Assembly: GCF_000304475.1 (NCBI RefSeq)
Contig: NC_018948.1
Location: forward strand, 62,001 to 126,000
DNA length: 64,000 bases
Reading direction: 5' to 3'
Source: Kazachstania africana CBS 2517
Taxonomy: Eukaryota; Ascomycota; Saccharomycetes; Saccharomycetales; Saccharomycetaceae
Under the pieces are notes generated by a model, which was not told the origin of the DNA, ran no database searches, and worked only from the letters and a program-made list of their open reading frames with translations. Each line of letters starts with the position of its first letter. Within the stretch, counting starts at the first letter, position 1. Shown one piece after another: positions 1 through 62,359 of the stretch. A program made the translations under genes and the position numbers.

Positions 1-1655
1 TTAGAAATATTTCTAAATTTCAAAACATCATTTACAGTATAGTTAGCATGCAATCTAGCGGCATTCAGAAGATAGATGTTAATAGTAGCGCTGACGACTA
101 AAGCACAAAAAATAAGCTTACTAACAATTCTATCACGTATAGTGACACTAATATGATGTAAAAGCATGTAAACTAAATCTTCTAACTGATGAATTCTCTT
201 CGTTTGTTGATAATATTGGATTGGAGTCAAAGAAATTAAAATTGGTACATTATTATTACCGGCAATGTTTCGTATTGTTATAAAATCTGGTAACGACGCA
301 TTATTGAAGTTACTATAATATAAATTTGAGAAAACATTTGTCGCCCAATCAATACCAAAGTTATAGAAATGGATTATAAAGAAAAGAGCAATTAAGCTCA
401 ATTTGAAAACGATCAAAGCCGCTGTAGAATGAAATAAAGAGTATTTAGGCTTATTTTCCTTTGCTTGGGAGATGAATTTTGCAGTAGTTGGAACCACGCC
501 ATCTTCTTCCAAAGTTTGTCTAATAATTGTGGATCTATGAATTAAGTTCATTTCTAATTTTAACGAAACAATGGCAGCATAGAACGTGCTGGTCAAAATT
601 AGATCGAAAGTTAGCATAAAAGCGCAAAGGATACAAAAATTACTCAACGTCGTTAGATGAGCGGCATAAATTGAGCACCCAATAAATGCGACAAGGCATA
701 ACAAGTTGTCCTGTAAAAGGCGACCACCTTCGTCGAACATTGATTCGTGGATAACCTTACTAGTAGTAATTTTCTTTGAAATACCAATTTTTTCCATCTT
801 TGATAAGGCATTCTTGGCAAATTTAATCTGATTATTAAATCCAACGACGATAATAATGAATGGAATACCTTCAATTAAACTGATGGCGGCAACATGGACC
901 TTGAGGACACACTGAGTAGTGAATAAGGCTAATATTAGGGCACACAGTGTGTTAAAGACTGTCGCTAAACTTAACCAGAAATTTGTCGTACCTGCTTGTT
1001 GTTTTCTCATATCATTGAATAATGAGGTAAAGGTGTAACACATAGTCAAATAAGCCATTGAAATGATTACGATATCAAAGGATTCAGCTTCATTGATATG
1101 GGTTGAACATGTTTCGAACAATTTCTTGAAAAATCTTTTCGGTAAATTCGAGATATTAATGCTTTGTATATTCAATAATCTCCATTGAGTATTTGAATTT
1201 TCTGACTCCAATGTATCCATTTCCTTTAAGGGCGTGGAAGATAATATGTACTTTGTGTTATTGATTTCATATAATGTATCACCTACCGTTGGTAACTCCA
1301 TATCTGATGCCAAATCGAAGTCTTTAAAGTTCAAATTGTACAAATAGTAATGTTTCAATGATATAGCTTGGTCTACCATTTTCTGTTCTGCGTCTTTCGT
1401 GGAGATGAGATTCCAATTGTCTGAGCCAGAAGCCCTGTAATAGTGGGTACATTCTTTGAACAAGTTTCCACCATCATTAGAGTTCAAATTCAATAACTGT
1501 AGTCCATTGAAATAGTACTGAAACACAGATATGTAAGACAACGTGGAAAGCAGCAATACCAACAAAATCACGTGGATTGGGCGCCTAGCAGAGAACCTAG
1601 CAGCATATGCCAAAGGTTTAGCCAGCTGGTTAAACTGTTTAAAAAGTAAAGGCAT
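1..1655 (-). CDS. HMG1: HMG-CoA reductase, N-terminal membrane part (gene runs off the left edge)
   Basis: HMG-CoA reductase makes mevalonate, the committed step of sterol and isoprenoid synthesis, in the ER membrane. Only about 551 N-terminal codons are inside the window. The protein opens MPLLFKQFNQLAKPLAYAAR and continues SARRPIHVILLVLLLSTLSY, very close to S. cerevisiae Hmg1/Hmg2, followed by the lumenal loop and several hydrophobic segments of the sterol-sensing membrane domain. The last residues seen (YLLNAARLHANYT) match the end of the membrane domain, so the linker and catalytic domain lie outside. Start chosen by homology. HMG1 and HMG2 are WGD duplicates; I use HMG1 because the following genes match YML074C onward. 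No frame break is seen inside the visible part. Confidence 0.93.
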   Translation of the reverse strand, partial: MPLLFKQFNQLAKPLAYAARFSARRPIHVILLVLLLSTLSYISVFQYYFNGLQLLNLNSNDGGNLFKECTHYYRASGSDNWNLISTKDAEQKMVDQAISLKHYYLYNLNFKDFDLASDMELPTVGDTLYEINNTKYILSSTPLKEMDTLESENSNTQWRLLNIQSINISNLPKRFFKKLFETCSTHINEAESFDIVIISMAYLTMCYTFTSLFNDMRKQQAGTTNFWLSLATVFNTLCALILALFTTQCVLKVHVAAISLIEGIPFIIIVVGFNNQIKFAKNALSKMEKIGISKKITTSKVIHESMFDEGGRLLQDNLLCLVAFIGCSIYAAHLTTLSNFCILCAFMLTFDLILTSTFYAAIVSLKLEMNLIHRSTIIRQTLEEDGVVPTTAKFISQAKENKPKYSLFHSTAALIVFKLSLIALFFIIHFYNFGIDWATNVFSNLYYSNFNNASLPDFITIRNIAGNNNVPILISLTPIQYYQQTKRIHQLEDLVYMLLHHISVTIRDRIVSKLIFCALVVSATINIYLLNAARLHANYTVNDVLKFRNIS

Positions 1656-2050
1656 ACCTCTATTGCTTGTGGGACGTGTATCTTGTATGATTAATCTTTC
1701 AACAGATTTTGAAACTTCAATCAATTTAAATTAGGAAAATTATATTGGCCCGAACACCGAAAGAAATCGTTATAATAATGGAGAGCTTAAGAAACTTGAA
1801 AAGACTCAGTAAAGGATACGTATGATATATATGTAATGCAATAGGGATAGTTTTGGTTCCTTTATGTATTGTGGTGGCCAGTTTGACTAAGATTGGTGAC
1901 CAACTGCGAACAGAAATTGAAGTTATATTATTATCTAAGCAATTGCAAGTTTATATGAGCTTGTAATTGCTGTCTATAAAGCGTCGTACCATGTTATTAT
2001 ACATAACGTTATGTGTTGTAATAATAATCGCCAAGCATCCCCGATAAATT
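1656..2050. other. HMG1 promoter region, no gene seen
   Basis: AT-rich gap between the HMG1 start and the stop codon of the FPR3-like gene, both on the minus strand. It should hold the HMG1 promoter. I looked for leftover FKBP coding sequence from a longer FPR3 gene on the minus strand and saw none. Confidence 0.6.
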
Positions 2051-2443
2051 TTAAACCGATACAACATTCCCAAGCAGCTGCACATTCGCATTTCCCTCGA
2101 GAACGAACTGAACGTCGTCATCTGGCATCAGAACCAAATCCAAGTTGGCATGTCTCGTCTTATTGTCTAAGCAGCAGAACACGCTTTCAGTGAACTCGTC
2201 CTCTTGCTCTTCCATGTTCCCTGCTAACAAATCTTCCAAATTGTAATCCAATTCTGCTTGCGAGTTAGGTCTGACAATTCGTATAATGACAAATTCATTG
2301 TCGTTTAATTGCGAATTGAGACTTGCCAACGTCAAGTGTATCGCCAACTGGTCCTCATGCCCTGAACTTTCGTCGCTGAGGTTGATCGGCTCGTTGGGCT
2401 TCAACTCCACTTGGTAATGAGCAAGAGGTAGTAATCTTTGCAT
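2051..2443 (-). CDS. FPR3: FPR3-like protein reduced to the nucleoplasmin-like domain
   Basis: A 130-residue protein at the FPR3 position between HMG1 and RPL6A. It opens MQRLLPLAHYQVELKPNEP and later has DEFTESVFCCL, LDLVLMPDDDVQFVLEG and NVQLLGN, lining up with the N-terminal nucleoplasmin-like domain of Fpr3/Fpr4 (LLPLATYSL..., DEFQESVLLTL, LDLTITPEEEVQF, ISLSGNYV). It stops just after this domain. The acidic and lysine-rich middle and the C-terminal FKBP prolyl isomerase domain of the about 411-residue S. cerevisiae Fpr3 are absent. In the family this domain oligomerises and binds histones in the nucleolus. The frame is open and its motifs are kept, which argues for a working gene rather than decay, but a recent truncation cannot be excluded. 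A full-length Fpr4-type gene elsewhere in the genome is likely. Confidence 0.78.
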   Translation of the reverse strand: MQRLLPLAHYQVELKPNEPINLSDESSGHEDQLAIHLTLASLNSQLNDNEFVIIRIVRPNSQAELDYNLEDLLAGNMEEQEDEFTESVFCCLDNKTRHANLDLVLMPDDDVQFVLEGNANVQLLGNVVSV

Positions 2444-3062
2444 GCCTTCCGATGTCTATTGCTCGTTGATCACATCACGTATGTGCAGTGGCCTTTTCTT
2501 CTTCATCGCATCGTTTTTTTCTTTTCCTCGAGGCCAGCAAAGTGCGCGACATTTATCGCATAGCATAGTATTGTCCGTCGCTGAGGTACAGCTGTTTCTC
2601 AGCAAAGCAAATTATCTCGCAGACGGTCACTGATGCCATTCGTCTGTATACGAGACATGGGAACCTAATGATGCTACTGATATGAGGGCCAATGGAGGGA
2701 GGATCGGCATACTGAAGTGTGGTTTCAAGAATTAGTGTGTGTACTGCTTGTGCTCATTGTTATCTGAATCTGGAATTAAGCGTTTCCGTCGATGGTCTAT
2801 TACCCTGGAAAGTTCATCTTACTTCCTGTATTTTCTGATATAGATTGGTGTATGTAACTTTATAGACGAGGGTAGTACAAAGTAGTAGCTTAGATCTTGT
2901 CGGTCGACTAAACTGATGTGTCCCAACTGCAAATAATTTTAATTTAAACTCTGAAGTATTAGCTATAGGAATAAAAGAATCGACAATTATATTTTATAAA
3001 GTATAAATTTTGAGGTTTTAATAAAAATAAGCTATTTAATGATATTTAATCTAAAAAATTAC
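2444..3062. other. Intergenic region upstream of the FPR3-like gene
   Basis: Holds the promoter of the FPR3-like gene and the 3' end of RPL6A. Short open frames here show no recognisable protein. No RNA gene or repeat was recognised. Confidence 0.5.
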
Positions 3063-3960
<898 letters not shown>

Positions 3961-4672
3961 TATTGTTATTTGTTTCGGTTTGGTATTTAATCTTGACATA
4001 AGTTCAAATATAGTATATTTTTGTTTAATACTATTTTAACGATTTCACCTAAGGTTAGTTGGAAAATCGATATTGCACCGAGTGTTAGTGAATTGATGGA
4101 AAGTTTGCGTAGGCTGACGAAACAAGAGGAAGCAAGAAGGTCCCCCATGGGGATGAAAATTCCCCAGTGAGAGGCCCTTCCAAGCTAGGCAGAGTGTTTC
4201 CGTCTGTTTAGCAGGGGGGACTCTCTGCTTGGCCAGAAGGGAGACAAGCGTGACAGGCGGATAGAGAAGTTTCGCGGTGGAGGAGCTTCAGCCCCATCCA
4301 ACGGCGAGGGCAGACTGCTTGGCCCAGGCTACGCAAAGACTACCTGAGTTAGTCTCCAGCGCGACGTGGAGCTGACATTCGCGGACAATACGAGCGTGTC
4401 GCTCTGCGTCGAACAGGAAAAAATGCAACTTGAAATTATTTCAAGAAAAAAAAAATAAAAAGTTCAATAAAACCCAGACCCTGTTTGTATGGGTGTAAAA
4501 ACAGTCAAACAAAGATTGCGAAAGATTCTAAAGCCGTCCATCGTGAGAGTTATCACTTGGAAAGTGAGCATTGTTTTGAAGTCAATTATTGAATTACATA
4601 TAAAGAGAGACAGCTTAGACCAAAATAGGCATTACAGATATACATAACTTGAATCGCTTATTAGTTTTCCAT
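3961..4672 (-). promoter_or_regulatory. RPL6A promoter with GC-rich island
   Basis: Gap between RPL6A and the 3' end of TCB3. Reading towards RPL6A it holds a Rap1 site, a T-rich tract, a markedly GC-rich stretch (about 4130-4420, by eye above 50% G+C in an otherwise AT-rich window), then AT-rich DNA up to the start codon. The island contains the palindrome CCCCATGGGG (4143-4152) and, on the RPL6A strand, a GACGCA (4410-4405) that resembles the Fhl1 core. No open frame or known RNA was recognised. Confidence 0.6.
4484..4496 (-). promoter_or_regulatory. Rap1 binding site of RPL6A
   Basis: The minus strand reads ACACCCATACAAA, an excellent match to the Rap1 consensus (ACACCCRYACAYM) that drives yeast ribosomal protein genes. 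It lies about 525 bp upstream of the RPL6A start, farther than the 200-400 bp usual in S. cerevisiae. Confidence 0.8.
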
Positions 4673-7600
4673 TTACTGAGCGTATTCTTTCGGAATCTCA
4701 GGTACTGGGGGGATCTCATTTCCAGTGTGCCCATAGTTGACCTTGACAATGATGCGTCCCTCCGCTAGTTTGACAGCCATATTTTCTTCTACATGGATTT
4801 GTGGATCGTTCAACAGAATCTGCGCGATACCAACGTCTCTGTCCTTACCTAACGTATGACGGGATATGGCGCCAATGACCAGGTTAGCCTCCGGTGACGC
4901 CTTAAATGCACATGTTTCGTTAACTGTCACTATGCCATTTTCTTGTGCCCTATGGTTTGCGGTTTTGTATACGCTCTTAATCTTACCGTTCTGTGCTAAT
5001 GATACTTTAAATTGAACATTCTTAGCAATATGTTCGGCAGCAATAATCGTTAATGTACCTTCATAAGTACTATTTGGTGACAGAGTGCGAGCAAAACTAC
5101 TGGCCCTGGAGCGTTTATTCACAATTTCTTGTACACCGGCAATACTGTAACCGCCATCGTCAACTTGTGGTTGGTTGTCAATTGAACTACGTTGGGCTAC
5201 TCCATTTTGATTAACCTGGGCATAACTATTATCTGGGATAGATGCATCATAATCAGCAGACGTTCTGCCTTTACGCTTACTAGATGATAAAGGTAATCTC
5301 CTGCTATTTTCGCCAGAACTTCTAGAATTACTGATGACATTCTGCTTCGATTTGGAACCACCGCCCAGGCTTTTCAGCAAGTTACCGCCTTTCTTTAAAC
5401 CACCAGAGGCAACACCTACACCTGCACCTGCTATACCAGCAACAGAAGATGCGGCATTCATACCAGCACCGGAGACGTTACCAAGAGCTCTCAAAGGTGC
5501 ATCTGATAAACTCTTTTCTTGAAGCTCAATAGTGGGTCTAAGATATTGTGGTTCAAATGTAGCTTGTACTTTGATTGTTCCTTGAGTATCCAATGGTATC
5601 TCCCAATCATATGTTGTACTTGGTTTCATTTGAATGATATCCAATGCAACCTTACCTAAGAAATCATTTTCACCTGCACGATCCCAATCAAATACATTCA
5701 ACGTGATTGCCGATCTTGTTTTTGAAGGAATCTTTAACTTAGCCTTTTCATTCCATACAGGGTCCAAGGTCTTCTTAATAGTTTTTGTTTTATGTTCTTT
5801 CTTACCATTGACATAGACAGTAACAAACGGATCAGATTTACCATTCCTGTCAGCAGATAATAATCCCCTCGCTGATTGTATATTCAAACTCAATATACCG
5901 GTATCTTGAACAGTTTCAGCAGCAGAAAGTCTCACAGGAGATGGATTATAAAGAAATTGAACCAAAACCTTAGATCCCTGGAAGTCCACCTCTGTTGGTT
6001 TGTCGTAGCCCTTTTGCAATAGACCTAAAGTACTGATAAAATGCTCGGAAATAACGTCGTTCTCCTCCTTAGGGAAACGCTCCTTTGAGACTCTGAATAA
6101 TAGCATACTATGCTTTAAGTCACGGATGAAAATGCCTGATGATTCGCCTGCGAGTTTACCACCTTTGTATTTGGAAGAAGTAAATTCAGGATACGGTATG
6201 TTATCGACCAGGATATGTAAATATGTTGACGTCCTTGAGAGGTGACCATTCAAAACCTGTAAAGTTAGGATACCGGAGTTGTACGAAACCAACTCATCGA
6301 GTGACATCTTTGTTTTAGAGTGCAATTCTTTTTCTTCTTCTTCAAATGGATCATTGACTTCGGCAACTTCCCAATCACTTGGATTGTCATGCATCTTTTG
6401 TCTCAAGTCAGCCTGTTTTTTCTCAAATTGATCTCTTTTCTCCTGTAAGTCTTTCTCTTGAGCTTCAACAGCAGATAATTCCTCTGCCGAATACACCTTT
6501 ATTGTTGGAATAAATGAAACAGCTAAATTCATAGTATCACTGGTACCTCTGTTACCTTCGTCTCTTAAATTCATTCTACGCATTGTATTATCGAATTCCT
6601 CTTTACATCTGTATTGTCCAGATTTTTGGTCCTTCTCAATAAGTTGCGAAACAGGTACCTGGTATTGGCCTATAAATCTATCAGAGCCTACCGATTGATA
6701 ATCATATAAAGCCACTGAAAAGAGTTGATTTTCGCTAGTAATAGGAATATAAACAAGCTCATCGAATATAGGGTTCTTATTTTCCGAAAAATGTCTTGAC
6801 TTATATCTCACATGTCTATTCAAAGAAACTTCAAAATAAGGGTCTATGTCACCGAAACCAGATAATGAAGATTTGACTAGTGCATCTTTAACATGAAGTT
6901 TGATACATCCGAGAGGATCGTTAGCACTGCCTTTTGCTGCAAATGCGCCAGTCAATTCAACTGGTTTCCATTGAGCAGTGAAATAAATCTCACCGCCTGA
7001 TGAACCTTTTACATATTCTTGGCCTAAGTCAGCTGCACCCATTAAATCTTCTATATTTGAAGAATATTCAGTAAGCAAATATTTACCGTTTATACGGTCA
7101 TCAAAGATCTTTAAAGTCAGCTTCGAATTCGATTTTGATTTAATAAGTGTTTCTATAGTTTCACCCCAGGATGGCTCATTGATACGTCTCAAGGTTCTCA
7201 AGGTCTTTACCAGCTTACCATCAATGTATAATTCACCACATGGACTCAAATTACCTGTCAAAGAAGAGGAGACATCCAAATATTTTACCTTTTGTATAGT
7301 CAATTTGGCAATACCAGCAGTAGCAGAAACGGCTTCTTCCTCTTCTTCCTCTTCTTGTTCCATTTCTTCAGTGGAAGATGGCTTTTCGATAACAGAGAAC
7401 CAATGTAGAGAATAGTTCAATAGACCCTTAGACTTGGAGCCAACAACCAACTCAGAAGAAGAATTTTCAATAGCAGGATTTTGATATAGAGCTCTGAGAT
7501 CAAACTCATGAGTACCTATCAAAGTATCTTTTCTTACATCGTTAAAATCATAACATGACATTTGTAACTTTTGGTCTAAAGTAGGTAAAAGAATGTACTT

Positions 7601-9190
7601 TGTTTCGTTCCATGTAGGGTCTTTAATGTTAGATTTAATAGCAGTACGAATTTCATTTTCATCACCAGGAAGAGGTTTTTCAGGTTTTAAAACAACGTAT
7701 GGATCCACTGTATTTGTGATGAAATTAGAGTCTTTTAGGCCTTTTGCAGAAGTGACAGTGACGACTAAGACACCTATGGCATCATTGGATTGAGCTGCCA
7801 TAATCTCCTCAACGTCTACATCGAAATGGTTTGGAGCATATAGCATTGGACCTGCAACAGAATCAACCATAGTTTTGACAAAACTCTTCAAACCCGGTAG
7901 GAAGGACATGACATCCAAACCCAAAGTGTCACCACCGATTGGTTTCAGGGCAAATTCCAATAAGGGTGGTTCTAATAATTGAATTTGAACTATCTTAATA
8001 TTAGGGAAAATTTTACCAAATTTCAATGTAATGCGCATTATACCAGCTACATTCATATCTTCCACTAATACTGGGAGTTTCTTAGAGACAAAACTTTTAC
8101 CCAGAGTAACACCTAGCGCCACTTTTGGATTAATTTTTTGGGCCGCTTCTGTTGGAGTCATGTCAGAAACGTCATTTGGAGTGAAAGCAAACGACCAATC
8201 CATTTCTACGGTGTCTTTACCAGTTTTTGTGTAAGATTTGATGCCTCTGATAGATGGAGCTTTTGTACCTAAAGTAAACTCATCTAATGATAATGCGTCA
8301 ATACCATAACCTGGTGCTACGCCGGCAAGAATTGGGTTGGCAATATCTTTAACTTGTTGGGATAGAACAGGCATGTAAATGACCCAAAATTTGGATAAGA
8401 ACGAATTCAGCCATTGCGTAGTTTCTAAACGACCCGATAAAGTTTCTTCTACAGTGATTCTCTTCAAATCGTCCCTGATATTCCTATTGAAACGGCGATA
8501 TTCGGTACTATAAACCGATGACGTAGCTAAGAATATAAACCCTAATGACCACCAGGAAAAGCCCATATAGGCAAATAACCATGAAAAAAAACATGTGCCC
8601 AGAACGATGGCAATGTTATAGTACCAATCGTTATAGAATGTTTCCATAATGTAGGCCTTTATAACTTTAGAATCCACACCCTGTGGAGTACCTTTCCCAG
8701 AAGCATGAAACTTACCGACATTTCTCCATGGAAACAAGGTATCTATGGAATCAGAATTGATGGCGTGGTCGAGTTTCTCCTGATCGGCCTTACTTAATGG
8801 GTCCAAGAGACCAGGACCTGGAATAGAGGTGTCGTATTTATTAGAGTCCCTCGACTTACTTTGTTTGAGCTCTTCTGGATGCACTTTCTCAAGAGGCACT
8901 GAGCCCAGAGTACCTTCTTTGTTTGGAGCAGGTAGCCTCGACTCGTTACTTTTCGCAACAATGACGCCCTTAGGAGGGACATTCGCATAATGGACGCCTT
9001 TGAGAGCAGTACGATTGGCTAATCGATCATCTTTTCCTCTATTCTCATCAGGCCTGTGTTGTTCAGAACCCGTTGTATAAGCATTTTTCATCTTTTGATG
9101 CAGGTTCCCGCTCTCTTTGGACTTACCTTGAACATTGCTGTCCGCCTTCAGCGAACTCTGATCATTAGTCCTAGACTTAGCTTGGAACAT
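4673..9190 (-). CDS. TCB3: Tricalbin, ER-plasma membrane tether with SMP and C2 domains
   Basis: Tricalbins (extended synaptotagmins) tether cortical ER to the plasma membrane and move lipids. The 1505-residue protein has a polar N-terminus, a hydrophobic hairpin (FYNDWYYNIAIVLGTCFFSW... at about residue 190-230), an SMP lipid-transfer domain (about 245-450, with FWVIYMPVLSQQVKD and GGDTLGLDVMSFLPGLKSF) and several C2 domains, including the clear Ca-binding type SADRNGKSDPFVTVYVNGKK. It ends VPPVPEIPKEYAQ, like S. cerevisiae Tcb3 (1545 residues). I chose the ATG opening MFQAKSR; the frame runs further upstream only through a GTG. An EEEEEEE run separates two C2 regions. Position between RPL6A and COG8 supports TCB3 over TCB1/2. 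Confidence 0.95.
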   Translation of the reverse strand: MFQAKSRTNDQSSLKADSNVQGKSKESGNLHQKMKNAYTTGSEQHRPDENRGKDDRLANRTALKGVHYANVPPKGVIVAKSNESRLPAPNKEGTLGSVPLEKVHPEELKQSKSRDSNKYDTSIPGPGLLDPLSKADQEKLDHAINSDSIDTLFPWRNVGKFHASGKGTPQGVDSKVIKAYIMETFYNDWYYNIAIVLGTCFFSWLFAYMGFSWWSLGFIFLATSSVYSTEYRRFNRNIRDDLKRITVEETLSGRLETTQWLNSFLSKFWVIYMPVLSQQVKDIANPILAGVAPGYGIDALSLDEFTLGTKAPSIRGIKSYTKTGKDTVEMDWSFAFTPNDVSDMTPTEAAQKINPKVALGVTLGKSFVSKKLPVLVEDMNVAGIMRITLKFGKIFPNIKIVQIQLLEPPLLEFALKPIGGDTLGLDVMSFLPGLKSFVKTMVDSVAGPMLYAPNHFDVDVEEIMAAQSNDAIGVLVVTVTSAKGLKDSNFITNTVDPYVVLKPEKPLPGDENEIRTAIKSNIKDPTWNETKYILLPTLDQKLQMSCYDFNDVRKDTLIGTHEFDLRALYQNPAIENSSSELVVGSKSKGLLNYSLHWFSVIEKPSSTEEMEQEEEEEEEAVSATAGIAKLTIQKVKYLDVSSSLTGNLSPCGELYIDGKLVKTLRTLRRINEPSWGETIETLIKSKSNSKLTLKIFDDRINGKYLLTEYSSNIEDLMGAADLGQEYVKGSSGGEIYFTAQWKPVELTGAFAAKGSANDPLGCIKLHVKDALVKSSLSGFGDIDPYFEVSLNRHVRYKSRHFSENKNPIFDELVYIPITSENQLFSVALYDYQSVGSDRFIGQYQVPVSQLIEKDQKSGQYRCKEEFDNTMRRMNLRDEGNRGTSDTMNLAVSFIPTIKVYSAEELSAVEAQEKDLQEKRDQFEKKQADLRQKMHDNPSDWEVAEVNDPFEEEEKELHSKTKMSLDELVSYNSGILTLQVLNGHLSRTSTYLHILVDNIPYPEFTSSKYKGGKLAGESSGIFIRDLKHSMLLFRVSKERFPKEENDVISEHFISTLGLLQKGYDKPTEVDFQGSKVLVQFLYNPSPVRLSAAETVQDTGILSLNIQSARGLLSADRNGKSDPFVTVYVNGKKEHKTKTIKKTLDPVWNEKAKLKIPSKTRSAITLNVFDWDRAGENDFLGKVALDIIQMKPSTTYDWEIPLDTQGTIKVQATFEPQYLRPTIELQEKSLSDAPLRALGNVSGAGMNAASSVAGIAGAGVGVASGGLKKGGNLLKSLGGGSKSKQNVISNSRSSGENSRRLPLSSSKRKGRTSADYDASIPDNSYAQVNQNGVAQRSSIDNQPQVDDGGYSIAGVQEIVNKRSRASSFARTLSPNSTYEGTLTIIAAEHIAKNVQFKVSLAQNGKIKSVYKTANHRAQENGIVTVNETCAFKASPEANLVIGAISRHTLGKDRDVGIAQILLNDPQIHVEENMAVKLAEGRIIVKVNYGHTGNEIPPVPEIPKEYAQ

Positions 9191-22397: not shown

Positions 22398-23093
22398 TCA
22401 TGCACGAGGGGTCTTTAATTTAGTTGATGATGAAGGAGATGATTTATTCTTCGAAAGTTTGCTACCGAAGCGTTTGTACAAGAGTATAGGGTCCCCAGTG
22501 TCTTTAATTTCACTGATAGTTAAGGTTAAGCTAAAGATCTTGGCCAAAGCAATTTTGAAGATCTTCTGTATATTTATTGATTTTGCCGTCGAGCAAAAAA
22601 CCAACGGTGCATCCATTACTTCTGAATAATCTAATGCAGTTTTCGAAACCTGCCTTTGGTACTCTTCGTCGAGGTCGATGAACAGATCGTATTTAGTGCC
22701 GACCAGTATTGGAATAGCCTGATTGTTGAGCCCATATGCTTGTCTATACCATTCCTTTACAGATTCCAGCGTCTCTGGTCGAGTCAAATCGAAGAGAAAT
22801 ATAATAGCTGCGGAACCTACGGCTGCCAAGGGCAGCATATTAATGAATTCACGTTGTCCACCGAGATCCATCAGAGAGAAGACAATATCCGTAGATCGTA
22901 AATTCACTTTACGTTTCAGAAAATTGACACCCAATGTCTGAGTGTATTCTTCGTCGAAGATATTTTGAACATACTTCACCATTAAAGAAGTCTTGCCAAC
23001 CTGAGCATCACCTACCAAACCGACTTGGATGTCAACCTGATTTCGTACAAAAGGAATTTGCTGATGTTTTTCATGCTCTTCAGAAGCTACCAT
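22398..23093 (-). CDS. TEM1: Ras-like GTPase Tem1 of the mitotic exit network
   Basis: Tem1 at the spindle pole triggers mitotic exit through Cdc15. The 231-residue protein (245 in S. cerevisiae) has P-loop GDAQVGKTS, switch [10 protein letters not shown], and the base-binding motif GTKYD. The core [18 protein letters not shown]...[11 protein letters not shown] is nearly identical to S. cerevisiae. The C-terminal tail is short and Ser-rich without a CAAX box, as expected. Start chosen at ATG (MVASEEHEK); the frame continues upstream only from a GTG. Convergent with ORC1. Confidence 0.96.
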
Positions 23094-23847
23094 TATTAAC
23101 ACTCCCACAGCAACTACCTGTCAATTCTCCTGTTTACCTGACCACAACTCTCTATAGTCAGTCCTAGCAATATATGTTAATACGTCTGTTACCACTACCA
23201 AAGATCCTTCCGAAGGTCTTGCCATTTTCAATGTTTACAATTTTTTCTCTTTTGGGATTTTCTCCATATAGAGAAATTTCCCATTCGGGACTTAATTGCC
23301 AGAATTCAGACTTTGACTGTTTTCTCGACTTCCACCCATACATACAGTTTAGAGCCCAGACATTCTATGTTTCATTTTCATTTTTTGCAAAAAAAATTCC
23401 TGAAGTTTCGGGAAAACTTTTCCAGAATTTTTCAGTCTGCGCGGGCGGCTTTCAGCAGCGTGGAGGACGCCGCGCAGGAGGGAGGGAAACTTCCAACGGG
23501 ACGGGAGGTTTGCTCTCCCTGGACTGAGAAATCTAGTTCCCGCATCAGGGTGGCTCCGAAATTTACTGGGAAAGAACGTCCCACAGCGCCTGCTGAAACT
23601 TCATCCTAGGCTGGGGATGCTACGCTCGCGAGACGGATTCCTAGGCAGAGAAGACGGCCTGCGGCACCATCGCAATTCTTGACAAATTTTGTACTGGGAA
23701 GCAGTCCGTCGGGATGCGTAAGGAACGCACTCTAGTATTTTGTAATACTGCTAAAATGATTAAGCTTGGATTTATAGAGTATATCTTGTCCTTGTCCCAA
23801 TATAGAATCTTTACGAAACCACACAAGTATACCGATTTAGACTAATC
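23094..23847 (+). promoter_or_regulatory. RPS1B promoter with GC-rich island
   Basis: TEM1-RPS1B divergent gap. Reading towards RPS1B: a Rap1 site, a T/A-rich tract including AAAAAAATTCC, then a GC-rich island at about 23431-23670, then AT-rich DNA to the start. This repeats the layout seen at RPL6A. Several open frames run through the island but none resembles a protein. No tRNA-type internal boxes or snoRNA boxes were recognised. Confidence 0.6.
23332..23344 (+). promoter_or_regulatory. Rap1 binding site of RPS1B
   Basis: CCACCCATACATA matches the Rap1 consensus of ribosomal protein promoters. It lies about 500 bp upstream of the RPS1B start, similar to the distance at RPL6A in this window. 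Edge positions may be off by one base. Confidence 0.75.
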
Positions 23848-24615
23848 ATGGCTGTTGGTAAGAATAAGAGATTATCCAAGGGTAAGAAGGGTTTAAAGAA
23901 GAAGGTTGTTGACCCATTCACCAGAAAGGAATGGTTTGATATCAAGGCCCCATCCACTTTTGAAAACAGAAATGTTGGTAAGACCTTAGTCAACAAGTCC
24001 ACCGGTTTAAAGAACGCCGCTGATGCCTTAAAGGGCAGAGTTGTCGAAGTTTGTTTAGCCGACTTACAAGGTTCTGAAGATCACTCCTTCAGAAAGGTTA
24101 AATTAAGAGTTGATGAAGTTCAAGGTAAGAACTTATTAACCAACTTCCACGGTATGGACTTCACCACTGACAAGTTAAGATCTATGGTCAGAAAGTGGCA
24201 AACTTTAATTGAAGCCAATGTCACCGTCAAGACTTCTGATGACTACGTCTTAAGAGTCTTCGCCATTGCCTTCACCAGAAAGCAAGCTAACCAAGTTAAG
24301 AGAACTGCTTACGCTCAATCTTCTCACATCAGAGCTATCAGAAAGGTTATTTCTGAAATCTTAACTAGAGAAGTTCAAAACTCCACTTTAGCTCAATTGA
24401 CTTCCAAATTAATTCCAGAAGTTATTAACAAGGAAATTGAAAACGCTACCAAGGACATCTTCCCATTACAAAACGTTCACATCAGAAAGGTTAAGTTATT
24501 AAAACAACCAAAATTCGATTTAGGTTCCTTATTAGCTTTACACGGTGAAGGTTCTGGTGAAGAAAAGGGTAAGAAGGTTGCTGGTTTCAAAGATGAAGTT
24601 TTAGAAACTGTGTAA
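23848..24615 (+). CDS. RPS1B: 40S ribosomal protein S1 (eS1)
   Basis: Small-subunit ribosomal protein near the mRNA exit channel. Length is 255 residues, equal to S. cerevisiae Rps1, starting [20 protein letters not shown]. No intron, as in S. cerevisiae. Codon use is strongly biased; of about 25 leucine codons all but one are TTA, unlike the TTG preference of S. cerevisiae ribosomal genes. RPS1A and RPS1B are duplicates; position between TEM1 and MFT1 indicates RPS1B. Confidence 0.97.
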
Positions 24616-40423: not shown

Positions 40424-42270
40424 TTAATTGTGTAAACGTTTTTCGTAAGAATGTAAGTTGTGAACACCACCTTCTAATTGAGCAGAAGCAGTTCTGAATT
40501 CAAATCTGACTTCACCCTTAGCGGAATCTTCTCTTAAGGAAGTTATGCTCTTAACACCAATATCTTGACAAGAATGTTGTAGACCGCTGTATAGATATGG
40601 AATGAATTTGGTGATAGAACCTTTGTCGACGACGGCACCAGAAACACCTTGGGCGACCAAAAGTTTATCAGATTCAGAGAAATAACGAGAAGTAGAAGCG
40701 TTACCCTTCTTACCAGTGGATTGCATAGCATCAACGGAACCCATACCACGGTAGACCTTTAATCTCTTTCCATCTCTGAAAAAGAATTCACCTGGAGATT
40801 CAGTAGTACCAGCTAAGAGACCACCCATCATAACAGTAGAGGCACCTAAAGCTAAAGCCTTAGTGATGTGACCAATGTTGTGAATACCACCATCAGCCAT
40901 ACATGGAACACCGAATTCCTTAGCGAATTTACAGACGTTGTAAACAGCGGTAGCTTGTGGTCTACCACAGGCCATAACTTCTTGAGTGATACAAATAGAA
41001 CCAGTACCCATACCAATTCTTAAAGCGTCACAACCGTTAACGATTAAGTTAGCGGCCTGTTCTCTAGTAGCGACGTTACCAGCAATAACTTCTAGGTTTG
41101 GGTAAGTTTGTTTAACCCATTTCAACATGTTAATTTGGAAAATGGAGTTACCTTGGGAAGAATCTAGGACGACAACATCAAGACCAGCTTCAACTAATAA
41201 AGCTAATCTTTCCCTGTCAGCGTCGATAGTACCAATAGAAGCACCACATAAAAGTTGCTTGGTAGAGGCAGACTTAGAAGCTAATGGGTAGTTTTGATTT
41301 TTCATTAAATCAGTTCTTGAAATCATAGAAACTAAGTTGTTCTTGTCATCAACAAGTAACAATTTACCCTTCTTAGTGTCCTTTAAAATCTTGTTACCTT
41401 CAGATAAGGTAATACCGTGCTTAGCGGTAATTGGATTAGCAGTCATGACTTCAGTGACTTTGACGGAGTCGTCTTCCAAAAATTGGACATCACGAGAAGT
41501 GACTAAACCTAAAAGTTTACCTGGGAATTTGCCACCTTCTAATTGAATAATAAAGTAACGGTTGTTAGTAAAAAGAGGCTTGTCAAACAAAGTCATTTTT
41601 ATCTTTAGATTAAAGTAAAGAAAAGTATTTCATATCCTTTAAGTAAGCTCAGAAAGAAAAGTTGTCTACACGATCGTTTGATCGAACTCAGTAGAACGAA
41701 AGTTATTAAATTAAGTCAATCATCATATTATTGTAACGTAGAGATATGGAAAATATTTTCTATTATAATTCGAAGATAAAAGTTAGTAATAAATAAAAAA
41801 ATGGACATACCAGTAACTGGGAAACCGGAGAAACCGTGTTGTTCCTTCATAGCTTTAACTTCAGCGACAGTAGTTTCTGGAGAAATGACGACTGGAGAGT
41901 TAATGAAACCGTTTTCATAGGTTTTAACTCTCTTAACCATTGCAGCTTGAGCTTCTGGAGTACAGTTATGATGGATGATACCGATACCACCTAATAAAGC
42001 CATATGGATAGCCATTTCAGATTCAGTAACAGTGTCCATAGGAGAAGAAACGAATGGAGTGTTTAAAGAGATCTTCTTAGTTAATTTAGTGGTTAAATCA
42101 ACTTCGGAAGATGGGAAGTTGACGAAACCTGGTAAGACTAAGAAATCGTTGTAAGTCAAACCACCTCTGATGGTGGAATCCATTAATTCAGCGACAGATA
42201 AACCATCTTTCTTTTCGAAAGTTTCTAGGTACTCTAAAGCAGTACGGTAATCTCTCTTAGCAGCGGTCAT
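40424..42270 (-). CDS. IMD4: IMP dehydrogenase, spliced, intron hosts a snoRNA
   Basis: Rate-limiting step of GTP synthesis, IMP to XMP. Exon 1 42270-41811, exon 2 41538-40424, 524 residues as in S. cerevisiae Imd4. The 272-nt intron (41810-41539) has a GTATGT donor, exact TACTAAC branch point (minus, 41570-41564) and TAG acceptor; the join restores [21 protein letters not shown]. Catalytic loop GSICITQEV with the active Cys, flap RYFSESD and GGIHNIGHI are intact; a CBS pair sits between. Codons are strongly biased. An ATG inside the intron opens a frame into exon 2 and can mislead gene prediction. Only IMD3/IMD4-type loci have this intron; position after CMP2 gives IMD4. Confidence 0.96.
41644..41730 (-). 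ncRNA. SNR54: C/D box snoRNA snR54 in the IMD4 intron
   Basis: On the IMD4 strand the intron holds box C ATGATGA (41726-41720), box D' CTGA (41691-41688) and box D CTGA (41652-41649), about 87 nt in all. Just upstream of D' lies TAACTTTCGTTCT (41705-41693), which pairs over 13 nt with AGAACGAAAGUUA of 18S rRNA. The D'+5 rule points to the A before the C of that stretch, the known snR54 target (18S A974). S. cerevisiae snR54 also sits in the IMD4 intron. Ends are approximate. Confidence 0.88.
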
Positions 42271-48457: not shown

Positions 48458-48531
48458 GACTCCATGGCCAAGCTGGTTAAGGCGTGCGACTGTTAATCGC
48501 AAGATCGTGAGTTCAATCCTCACTGGGGTCG
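48458..48531 (+). tRNA. tRNA-Asn (GTT)
   Basis: 74-nt tRNA without intron. Acceptor GACTCCA pairs with TGGGGTC plus discriminator G; anticodon GTT at 48492-48494 in loop CTGTTAA; T-arm contains GTTCAATCC. Nearly identical to S. cerevisiae tRNA-Asn. Followed within a few bases by a T-run, the Pol III terminator. Sits at the break between the YML and YKL synteny blocks. Confidence 0.97.
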
Positions 48532-57507: not shown

Positions 57508-57606
57508 TCCTTGTTAGCTCAGTTGGTAGAGCGTTCGGCTTTTAAGTAATTATATACTTAAGCAAGGATTACCGAAATGTCAGGGGTTCGAGCCCCCTAT
57601 GAGGAG
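57508..57606 (+). tRNA. tRNA-Lys (TTT) with 26-nt intron
   Basis: Acceptor TCCTTGT pairs with ATGAGGA plus discriminator G. Anticodon TTT at 57541-57543; the intron (57545-57570) follows A37, the canonical site, and mature length is 73 nt. B-box GGTTCGAGCC is intact and a T-run follows. Mature sequence matches S. cerevisiae tRNA-Lys(UUU), whose intron is 23 nt. Sits at the break between the YKL and YBR synteny blocks. Confidence 0.97.
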
Positions 57607-60275: not shown

Positions 60276-60455
60276 CACTAATATAGTATGTTTCCTGGAT
60301 TATAACAATATTTGATTACGCTTATAAATTACAAACCAAACCGTTATTATATACACTACACTCTAATTTTTCAATGGTCATCTGCTGCAATGACAAACTT
60401 AAAAAGAAAGAAAATCGTAAAAATTTTCAACTGTTCGTGCAAAGTGACAGACCTC

Positions 60456-60468
60456 GAAGCTTCTAGAA
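60456..60468. promoter_or_regulatory. Heat-shock element of the SSE gene
   Basis: GAAGCTTCTAGAA: three perfect alternating nGAAn/nTTCn units, the Hsf1 consensus, about 180 bp upstream of the SSE start. The rest of the 338-bp gap up to NPL4 shows no gene. Confidence 0.8.
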
Positions 60469-60613
60469 AAATCGACTTCGATGGGCAGATGAAGTTGATG
60501 GGAATGGCGAGTTTGAAGGCCAGTGGACGGTCAGATGGCCGGTTTGGGGCGTTTGGTAGATGTGCATGTGTATTGAGATGTATATACTCGAGTATGTAGT
60601 GGACGGGGGTCCG

Positions 60614-62359
60614 TTAGGCGGCACTTTCTTGCAAAATCATGATGAGAGTCTGCCAGCCCGGTGTGGTGGTCAATTGCAGGAGGGGCTCTTCAAAATCTGT
60701 GTTTCCCGAGGCCTTCACTAGTAGGTCCCACTCTTCTTCCGACAGGATCTGTAGAGTGTGTATGTAGAGAAGGAGATGGAAATTCGAGATTTGATCGTGC
60801 AGAACGTTGAAATCGCCCCCGACACTGGCATTGTAAAGGTATCTTTTCAACTCGGTATAGTCCTGAGACTGTCCCATGGACTGTCTGTTGGCCCATGGGA
60901 ATCCCTTCGTTTGGATGAATCTGGCATTGGATTGAGTGTCAGTCTTGGGGAAACCGTGCGTTAACGAGACTAGTAAATAATCCACGGGAAACGCTGGCTT
61001 TGCATTCTCTTTCACCGTGGTACCGTATTCGTTCACTTTCATGTAGAAAATCTCAGGAACGTATCTTTCTGTGGTTGTATCGTTGATGTATGCCATAGAT
61101 GGGTGTGTAGATCCGCTGATCATACCTGCATCAACCAATGCTTCTGCTTCTTTCGACACTTGGTAACTAGTAATGTCAATCTCTCCTTCCAAATTACCGG
61201 AAACTACACATGTAACAAATTTTGATGAGAAAACCCCTTGTTCACTGTACTTACAAACATTTGGATGCTCGAGTTGATGTTTCGCCGCCATTATAATTTC
61301 CAATGATGATAGAAAGAACGAATCCTTATGTCTCTTGGCAAACACAGAACCATCACCATTACCTGCATCAGATAAATCTGTGAAGATAAGGCCGATGCAC
61401 GTTAGACCCATTCTGTTTGCTAGCGAGAGAACATGCTGAATTTCTTCTTTAACTTGTACAACGTCCATAGTCAACCCATCTTGTTCATCATGCTGAGGTG
61501 GCTCATAGATGGCCTCTACGACGGCTTTCATCCCTAAAGGCGTGGCATCGTATCTTTTGTACGAACCGAAGAGATAGCCAAACCTTTGCATACCAGTGAA
61601 CCTCCAGGATTCGATAAATTCATTAATCAATTCACTCTTTTGGAATTCGACATGATCGACCATTCTAAACTCTTGTAATTGTAAAGTGATCGCAGAAGGT
61701 TGACATTTTGAACAAATACCGCGAGGCCATGGTTCGTGGCCATTTCTGCAACCTTTATCGATCTTAAAATCTGGTTGTGATAAGGGAGCAATATATGAGC
61801 TACCGCTAGATTTCTTATTCGTGGTCTCATTCAATTTCTTCAAATAGGAATGATACGAGATATGCTTGAACTTGTTCTCCTCGTGATATTCTTTATCCCA
61901 TGGTGGCAAGGGAGAGCAATACTCACACATACCCTTATCACCATGCTTACAGAGATGCGATCTTTCCCTTGGAATCAAACCTTCTTCCTTCTCCAGTTCT
62001 TCATCTATCGCCAATTCCTTCACGTCCAGCGGACCATTGACATTAGTAGGAGTGATATTGATTGAAGCCTGCATGCTACTCGAATGTGGCGTTTCATCAC
62101 CTGCGGCCCCCTCTGATTTGGCCTGGAAAGTAATATACACAATATCACCATGGTTGAGCCCCAAGTCACCCACTGATCTTTCCATCAACACCACTGCAGG
62201 CTCACCAACTTCACCTGGATTGTGAGACACACTAAAAGTAGATGGGTCTGCAGCAGGACTTAATTGTGGCAATAACTTTTCCAATAAAGAACCGAATGCA
62301 TCCGTTTTTTCACAGGATACCCTGTGCATACCATCCTTTGATCTGAATCTAATCAACAT
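60614..62359 (-). CDS. NPL4: Cdc48-Ufd1-Npl4 ubiquitin adaptor Npl4
   Basis: With Ufd1 recruits ubiquitylated proteins to the Cdc48 ATPase for ERAD and chromatin extraction. The 581-residue protein (580 in S. cerevisiae) has an N-terminal ubiquitin-like domain (MLIRFRSKDGMHRVSCEK), zinc-binding motifs (HLCKHGDKGMCEYCSPLPPW; GHEPWPRGICSKCQPSA), an inactive MPN domain (HVEFQKSELINEFIESWRFT, FGYLFGSYKRYDATPLG, IGLIFTDL) and the C-terminal Npl4 domain. All landmarks are collinear with the family. Confidence 0.96.
   Translation of the reverse strand: MLIRFRSKDGMHRVSCEKTDAFGSLLEKLLPQLSPAADPSTFSVSHNPGEVGEPAVVLMERSVGDLGLNHGDIVYITFQAKSEGAAGDETPHSSSMQASINITPTNVNGPLDVKELAIDEELEKEEGLIPRERSHLCKHGDKGMCEYCSPLPPWDKEYHEENKFKHISYHSYLKKLNETTNKKSSGSSYIAPLSQPDFKIDKGCRNGHEPWPRGICSKCQPSAITLQLQEFRMVDHVEFQKSELINEFIESWRFTGMQRFGYLFGSYKRYDATPLGMKAVVEAIYEPPQHDEQDGLTMDVVQVKEEIQHVLSLANRMGLTCIGLIFTDLSDAGNGDGSVFAKRHKDSFFLSSLEIIMAAKHQLEHPNVCKYSEQGVFSSKFVTCVVSGNLEGEIDITSYQVSKEAEALVDAGMISGSTHPSMAYINDTTTERYVPEIFYMKVNEYGTTVKENAKPAFPVDYLLVSLTHGFPKTDTQSNARFIQTKGFPWANRQSMGQSQDYTELKRYLYNASVGGDFNVLHDQISNFHLLLYIHTLQILSEEEWDLLVKASGNTDFEEPLLQLTTTPGWQTLIMILQESAA

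Follow-up and report, generated by a model that had tools for sequence, protein, structure and literature searches.

What has become of FPR3 in Kazachstania africana CBS 2517? We analysed a window of 64,000 nucleotides (contig NC_018948.1, forward strand, positions 62,001 to 126,000; here C9:62001-126000) in which the FPR3 position is occupied by an open reading frame (ORF) of 130 codons. The ORF encodes a free-standing nucleoplasmin-like (NPL) domain with no FKBP domain attached. The locus thus raises the question of whether a duplicate from the whole-genome duplication (WGD) can be kept as a single domain, or whether we are looking at a remnant. The explanation that we favour, tentatively, is that the FPR3 ohnolog has been cut back to the NPL core that forms the ring and retained as a gene that evolves fast and tunes the rings of its full-length sister, Fpr4.

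A free-standing NPL domain at the FPR3 locus

The features at the locus, all on the minus strand, are as follows.
2051..2443, minus: ORF of 130 codons from ATG to TAA, a free-standing NPL domain and truncated FPR3 ohnolog (ORF call; PF17800 model 2-94/94)
2060..2416, minus: NPL domain, ORF residues 10-128 by Pfam (Pfam and AlphaFold model)
2195..2266, minus: contracted A1/B1 loop, about residues 60-83, with the motif EDLLAGNMEE (loop alignment, pattern)
1656..2050, minus: 3' flank reaching the start of HMG-CoA reductase; searched for remnants of the acidic/basic middle and the FKBP domain, none found (tblastn, profile)
2444..3062, minus: 5' flank reaching the RPL6 stop; exact PAC or RRPE-type core absent (motif search)
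2456..2506, minus: 16-codon upstream ORF (MKKKRPLHIRDVINEQ, stop) that shares the frame of the main ORF and ends 12 nt before its ATG

The Pfam NPL model covered ORF residues 10-128 at model positions 2-94 of 94 and scored 43.0 bits (cut-off, 23.4 bits). The distance from the start codon to LLPLA equals that of the full-length relatives shown, and the stop codon lies two residues past the conserved GNxV, likewise two residues beyond the Pfam domain. This bears out the original prediction, made from the letters of the window, of a cleanly ending gene of 130 residues with nothing but an NPL domain. The short protein therefore has the N-terminal NPL domain of the NPL-FKBP family. AlphaFold, run on the ORF without relatives, returned an NPL-like fold at low confidence, with strands at residues 5-15, 33-42, 52-59, 84-92, 98-105, 112-116 and 121-129, so that a jelly-roll core like that of nucleoplasmins is predicted. 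Sequence searches of the PDB linked neither the ORF (best E=0.5) nor A1 (best E=0.21) to an NPL entry at a significant level; the fold match is model-based. A chance ORF was considered and dismissed, given the NPL homology and a probability of 7e-5 to 3e-4 for an open run of 129 codons at this base composition.

The gene order in the window is HMG-CoA reductase, ORF, RPL6 second exon, tricalbin, Dor1/COG8 protein and DAK1. On contig C5 it is V-ATPase AC39 subunit, Argonaute, FPR4 and a second HMG-CoA reductase, of which the AC39 subunit and Argonaute were named by Pfam and the reductase was recognised from its sequence. These flanking orders place the ORF at the FPR3 position, as had been claimed, on the side of HMG-CoA reductase, RPL6 and tricalbin, and FPR4 at its own locus. 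We take the neighbours to be HMG1, RPL6A and TCB3 and assume the same order around FPR3 in S. cerevisiae. The full-length FPR4-type gene envisaged as a partner also exists: the genome (11.13 Mb in 12 contigs) contains two NPL matches, the short ORF and a 399-residue, full-length FPR4 on C5 that is 100% identical to KAFR_0E04240 (CBS 2517).

What the short protein has lost

The short protein is without the A2 acidic region, the basic region, the FKBP domain and most of the A1/B1 loop, which measures about 20 residues vs about 54 in K. africana Fpr4 by loop borders of our own choosing. Its longest acidic run is three residues (EDE, DDD), and it has no basic pair and no basic run. It has no histone-binding acidic tracts of the nucleoplasmin kind and no C-terminal FKBP domain; it is derived from the NPL-FKBP family, with the defining part gone.

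The missing parts have left no recognisable trace nearby, in agreement with what had been claimed for the 395 bp downstream. There (1656-2050), tblastn with 120 relatives gave two matches at E<=1 (best E=0.20), both on the wrong strand. The same search of 2444-3060 gave 55 matches at E<=1 (best E=0.018) and no convincing remnant of the FKBP domain or the middle; among the four matches listed, three lie on a lysine-rich stretch and the fourth (E=0.12) elsewhere. With a profile of 71 relatives run over the six frames of 1500-3100, the NPL part alone exceeded the inclusion threshold. No orphan FKBP domain was seen genome-wide: the three FKBP_C matches comprise two in short frames, 144 and 131 residues long, and one in FPR4, which alone is linked to an NPL domain.

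Regarding the flanks themselves, the upstream ORF begins lysine-rich (MKKKRPL), and inspection, by eye only, revealed no yeast-type donor or branch site for a spliced 5' exon starting from it. A perfect 14-base palindrome, ACATAACGTTATGT, also noticed by eye, lies at 2001-2014, in the stretch that separates the NPL stop codon from the HMG-CoA reductase gene. A GC-rich island (2050-2800) begins at the ORF stop codon and covers the ORF and its 5' flank; it is one of four such islands of about 45-54% in the window (the others at 4073-4440, 23001-24100 and 60351-61300), the overall GC content of which is 37.5%.

The loop motif favours FPR3 over FPR4

The loop motif EDLLAGNMEE resembles DDLLGGDFDE of FPR3 and of unduplicated yeasts. 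Among the rows whose loop could be read (all but 3 of 73), a pattern composed after viewing them was present in 32 of 47 outside the FPR4 clade vs 2 of 23 inside it, several of the outside rows being near-identical S. cerevisiae entries. Both matches inside the clade look accidental, and the motif favours FPR3 over FPR4 as the origin of the ORF. In the NPL-only tree, the approximately unbiased (AU) test rejected neither a placement inside the FPR4 clade (p=0.268) nor one outside it (p=0.565). Among the 120 relatives listed, the best tblastn match to the ORF was P0064, an Fpr3-like protein of 352 aa that has an FKBP domain and a shortened NPL loop, which suggests that loop contraction may come before domain loss.

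No second complete free-standing NPL domain from a yeast was found with a seven-row NPL alignment, which gave 8 matches among 586 candidates. Each of the eight is an N-terminal piece whose sequence stops or shifts frame within or close to the acidic loop, and none reached the Pfam cut-off. The protein search needs shared five-residue words, and equally diverged short NPLs of sister yeasts could be missed by it. In the literature, searched mostly without subscription papers, no report of the truncated K. africana gene was found. The ORF appears to be an unannotated gene, because an identical entry should have been matched in the database search described below.

Selection on the NPL fold

Codon positions in the ORF carry the signature of protein constraint, and the frame is open without any disabling change; by these measures it is not a decayed pseudogene. 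Synonymous differences from FPR4 are saturated (pS = 0.89). Three neutral simulations all used K. africana FPR4 as a stand-in ancestor and substitutions only. When loop columns were kept, the ORF scored 62.2 bits against neutral values of 38.5 ± 10.0 and 38.6 ± 9.6. This puts it only about 2.4 standard deviations above neutral, and the maxima of 69.6 and 71.3 mean that at least one of each 500 runs scored higher, which argues against a strong reading. A second simulation gave 97.9 bits for the ORF against 33.0 ± 8.6 and 32.6 ± 8.7, a comparison biased toward the ORF in that columns without an alignment to the real sequence did not count. We relied on the version that used the loop-free core and charged for gaps, in which an open frame with as high a family score arose in 0 of 2000 runs at equal divergence.

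This last result implies that most of the branch was under selection for the NPL fold, and most of the divergence indeed fits such selection, summed over the time before and after truncation. The original prediction of selection on the retained domain thus stands for the fold over most of the divergence, as simulations and codon positions indicate, but one genome yields no separate signal for the period after the cut.

A model in which the short protein tunes Fpr4 rings

With its loop deleted, the NPL of S. cerevisiae Fpr4 forms a pentamer; a truncated N-terminal construct of FKBP39 formed oligomers with the endogenous full-length protein (both PMC4414354). The two S. cerevisiae paralogs, Fpr3 and Fpr4, interact with each other (PMC6893378). 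In Fpr4, H3 binding requires the A2 region, which also suffices for it; constructs without A2 show no stable H3 binding. The FKBP domain attaches to nucleosomes at their linker DNA (PMC5476585). A ring subunit without A2 and FKBP would be a weak chaperone alone and would thin the arms of a mixed ring. The "minimal chaperone" originally proposed is weakened by the need for A2 in H3 binding (PMC5476585) and by the loss of the basic region and most of the A1/B1 loop. The mixing with a full-length partner that the same proposal foresaw is plausible, and the subfunctionalisation that it envisaged is hypothetical.

We propose a role in which the short protein would be made and, having no basic run of its own, would enter the nucleus by riding with Fpr4. 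It would join Fpr4 rings as a subunit that brings neither an acidic A2 arm nor an FKBP arm. Such mixed rings would have fewer than five histone-binding and linker-DNA-binding arms, and the short protein would tune the avidity of Fpr4 rather than chaperone histones alone. Stated as a general principle, namely that a WGD paralog reduced to a bare ring subunit is kept by selection because it lowers the number of arms in the ring of its full-length sister and so adjusts chaperone avidity, the idea is possible but somewhat doubtful. Should the short protein be produced and mix with Fpr4, it would be a clear example of a WGD duplicate that persists solely as an oligomerisation domain, and it would offer a direct way of finding out what number of acidic and FKBP arms a ring of Fpr4 requires.

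Several observations weigh against this model. In a 39-row tree, the terminal branch of the ORF measures 2.52 substitutions/site, all other terminal branches being at most 0.4 (that of the outgroup row was absorbed by rooting); a branch of this length sits uneasily with a surface that has to go on fitting the slowly evolving Fpr4. A search with the ORF against a protein database of 5.8 billion sequences returned 19 candidates, limited to 0.55-1.75 times the ORF length, none of them at E<=0.01, and no orthologue of the truncated form emerged from the protein database searches. In synonymous codon choice each of the 95 gene chunks of the window scores higher than the ORF; the overall coding log-odds of the ORF are gene-like, 18% of the chunks being equal or lower. 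Exact PAC and RRPE-type cores are absent from its 5' flank and both present upstream of K. africana FPR4, so that the gene, if expressed at all, is probably expressed weakly or at another time. In the 73-row tree, all 14 rows of the clade that includes K. africana, Monosporozyma unispora and Maudiozyma exigua are of the FPR4 type (support 0.93), and FPR3 may be dispensable there, perhaps repeatedly. The ring size is also disputed for a relative, the FKBP39 NPL having been reported as a tetramer (PMC5225439).

Alternative explanations

Because a conserved shared interface is difficult to reconcile with such strong divergence, two alternatives deserve serious weight. In the first, which we consider unlikely though well worth keeping in view, FPR3 evolved fast at full length, recently lost its middle and FKBP domain to a deletion, and is now unselected and open by chance. 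In forward simulations the present frame survived 0.05 neutral substitutions/site with a probability of 0.09-0.37 and 0.1 substitutions/site with a probability of 0.008-0.15, depending on the indel rate, so that decay fits only if constraint was lost recently. Poor synonymous codon choice and the missing promoter cores are in line with such a young relic, as is the lack of a full-length FPR3-type protein in the K. africana clade of the tree. That tree drew on the best 120 of 1566 matches in the full-length protein search, few of which carry a species name, and beyond them there could be a sister yeast with FPR3 at full length. FPR3 may also have been cut or lost early in this clade, in which case the K. 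africana frame would be old and kept. Against a relic, the contracted loop and the long branch with a kept fold look like long altered but real constraint, no disabling change is present, and the frame ends just past the Pfam domain. If the ORF were a relic after all, it would show how long an NPL fold stays readable after a gene was cut.

The second alternative, rather doubtful in our view, is that the short protein is selected but self-standing, forming a homo-oligomer that does not mix with Fpr4 and whose acidic core binds some other basic partner. In its favour are the very fast divergence from Fpr4 and promoter motifs unlike those of FPR4, and the core is net acidic (24 aspartates and glutamates vs 6 lysines and arginines, pI 4.13). 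Moreover, the pore position reads His-x-Thr, as in AtFKBP53, and not the fungal Arg-x-Thr (roles of pore residues from PMC4414354). However, such a protein would have to act without a basic run and without an acidic tail of its own, and the NPL of FKBP39, taken by itself, shows only weak histone binding (PMC4414354).

That an assembly or sequencing error conceals a full-length FPR3 is highly improbable: no point in its support was found, 1500-3100 holds no convincing FKBP remnant, the only NPL-linked FKBP_C match is in FPR4, and the neighbouring genes are intact in a genome of 12 contigs.

Neighbouring genes and other features

Further features of the window are the following.
3..1655, minus: 5' half of HMG-CoA reductase, full length 1115 aa (ORF list, Pfam), presumably HMG1 by its position
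3063..3581, minus: RPL6 second exon, stop-to-stop frame, presumably RPL6A
4673..9190, minus: tricalbin gene (Pfam), which we take to be TCB3 by its position
41647..41730, minus: snR54 snoRNA (Rfam)
48458..48531 and 57508..57606, plus: tRNA genes (Rfam)

The Argonaute gene on C5 (L008:2490-6380), directly upstream of FPR4, is open and encodes 1296 residues with Piwi, PAZ and AGO_N domains; S. cerevisiae presumably has RPL6B at this place, between the V-ATPase subunit gene and FPR4. Six RNase III domain matches in the K. africana genome (C2:730502, C1:630100, C1:624889, C9:279843, C4:12008 and C1:458713), five of them over the cut-off, are candidates for Rnt1 and Dicer. Two of the matches on C1 lie about 5 kb apart in opposite orientation.

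Comparison with known NPL proteins

With S. cerevisiae Fpr3 and Fpr4, the K. africana protein shares its origin as the FPR3-locus ohnolog, a complete NPL core, the same start and the FPR3-type loop motif; it differs from them in the absence of A2, basic region and FKBP domain, in a loop of about 20 residues and in a branch of 2.5 substitutions/site. Alike in form is the Fpr4 NPL-delta-loop construct (Edlich-Muth et al. 2015, PMC4414354), an NPL core lacking the loop, and this construct is a pentamer in solution. That construct was made in the laboratory and carries a C-terminal tail, whereas the K. africana form is a natural gene about 32% identical to its own Fpr4. If made and mixing with Fpr4, the short protein would be a natural counterpart of the domain-deletion constructs used on these chaperones. 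Animal NPM/NLP proteins and Plasmodium PfNPM likewise consist of an NPL domain without a further folded domain, but they carry long, mostly acidic tails (PMC4414354), and the PfNPM tail is needed for histone binding (PMC11993163); the K. africana protein is tail-less. Unlike them, its free-standing NPL domain arose by loss from an NPL-FKBP protein.
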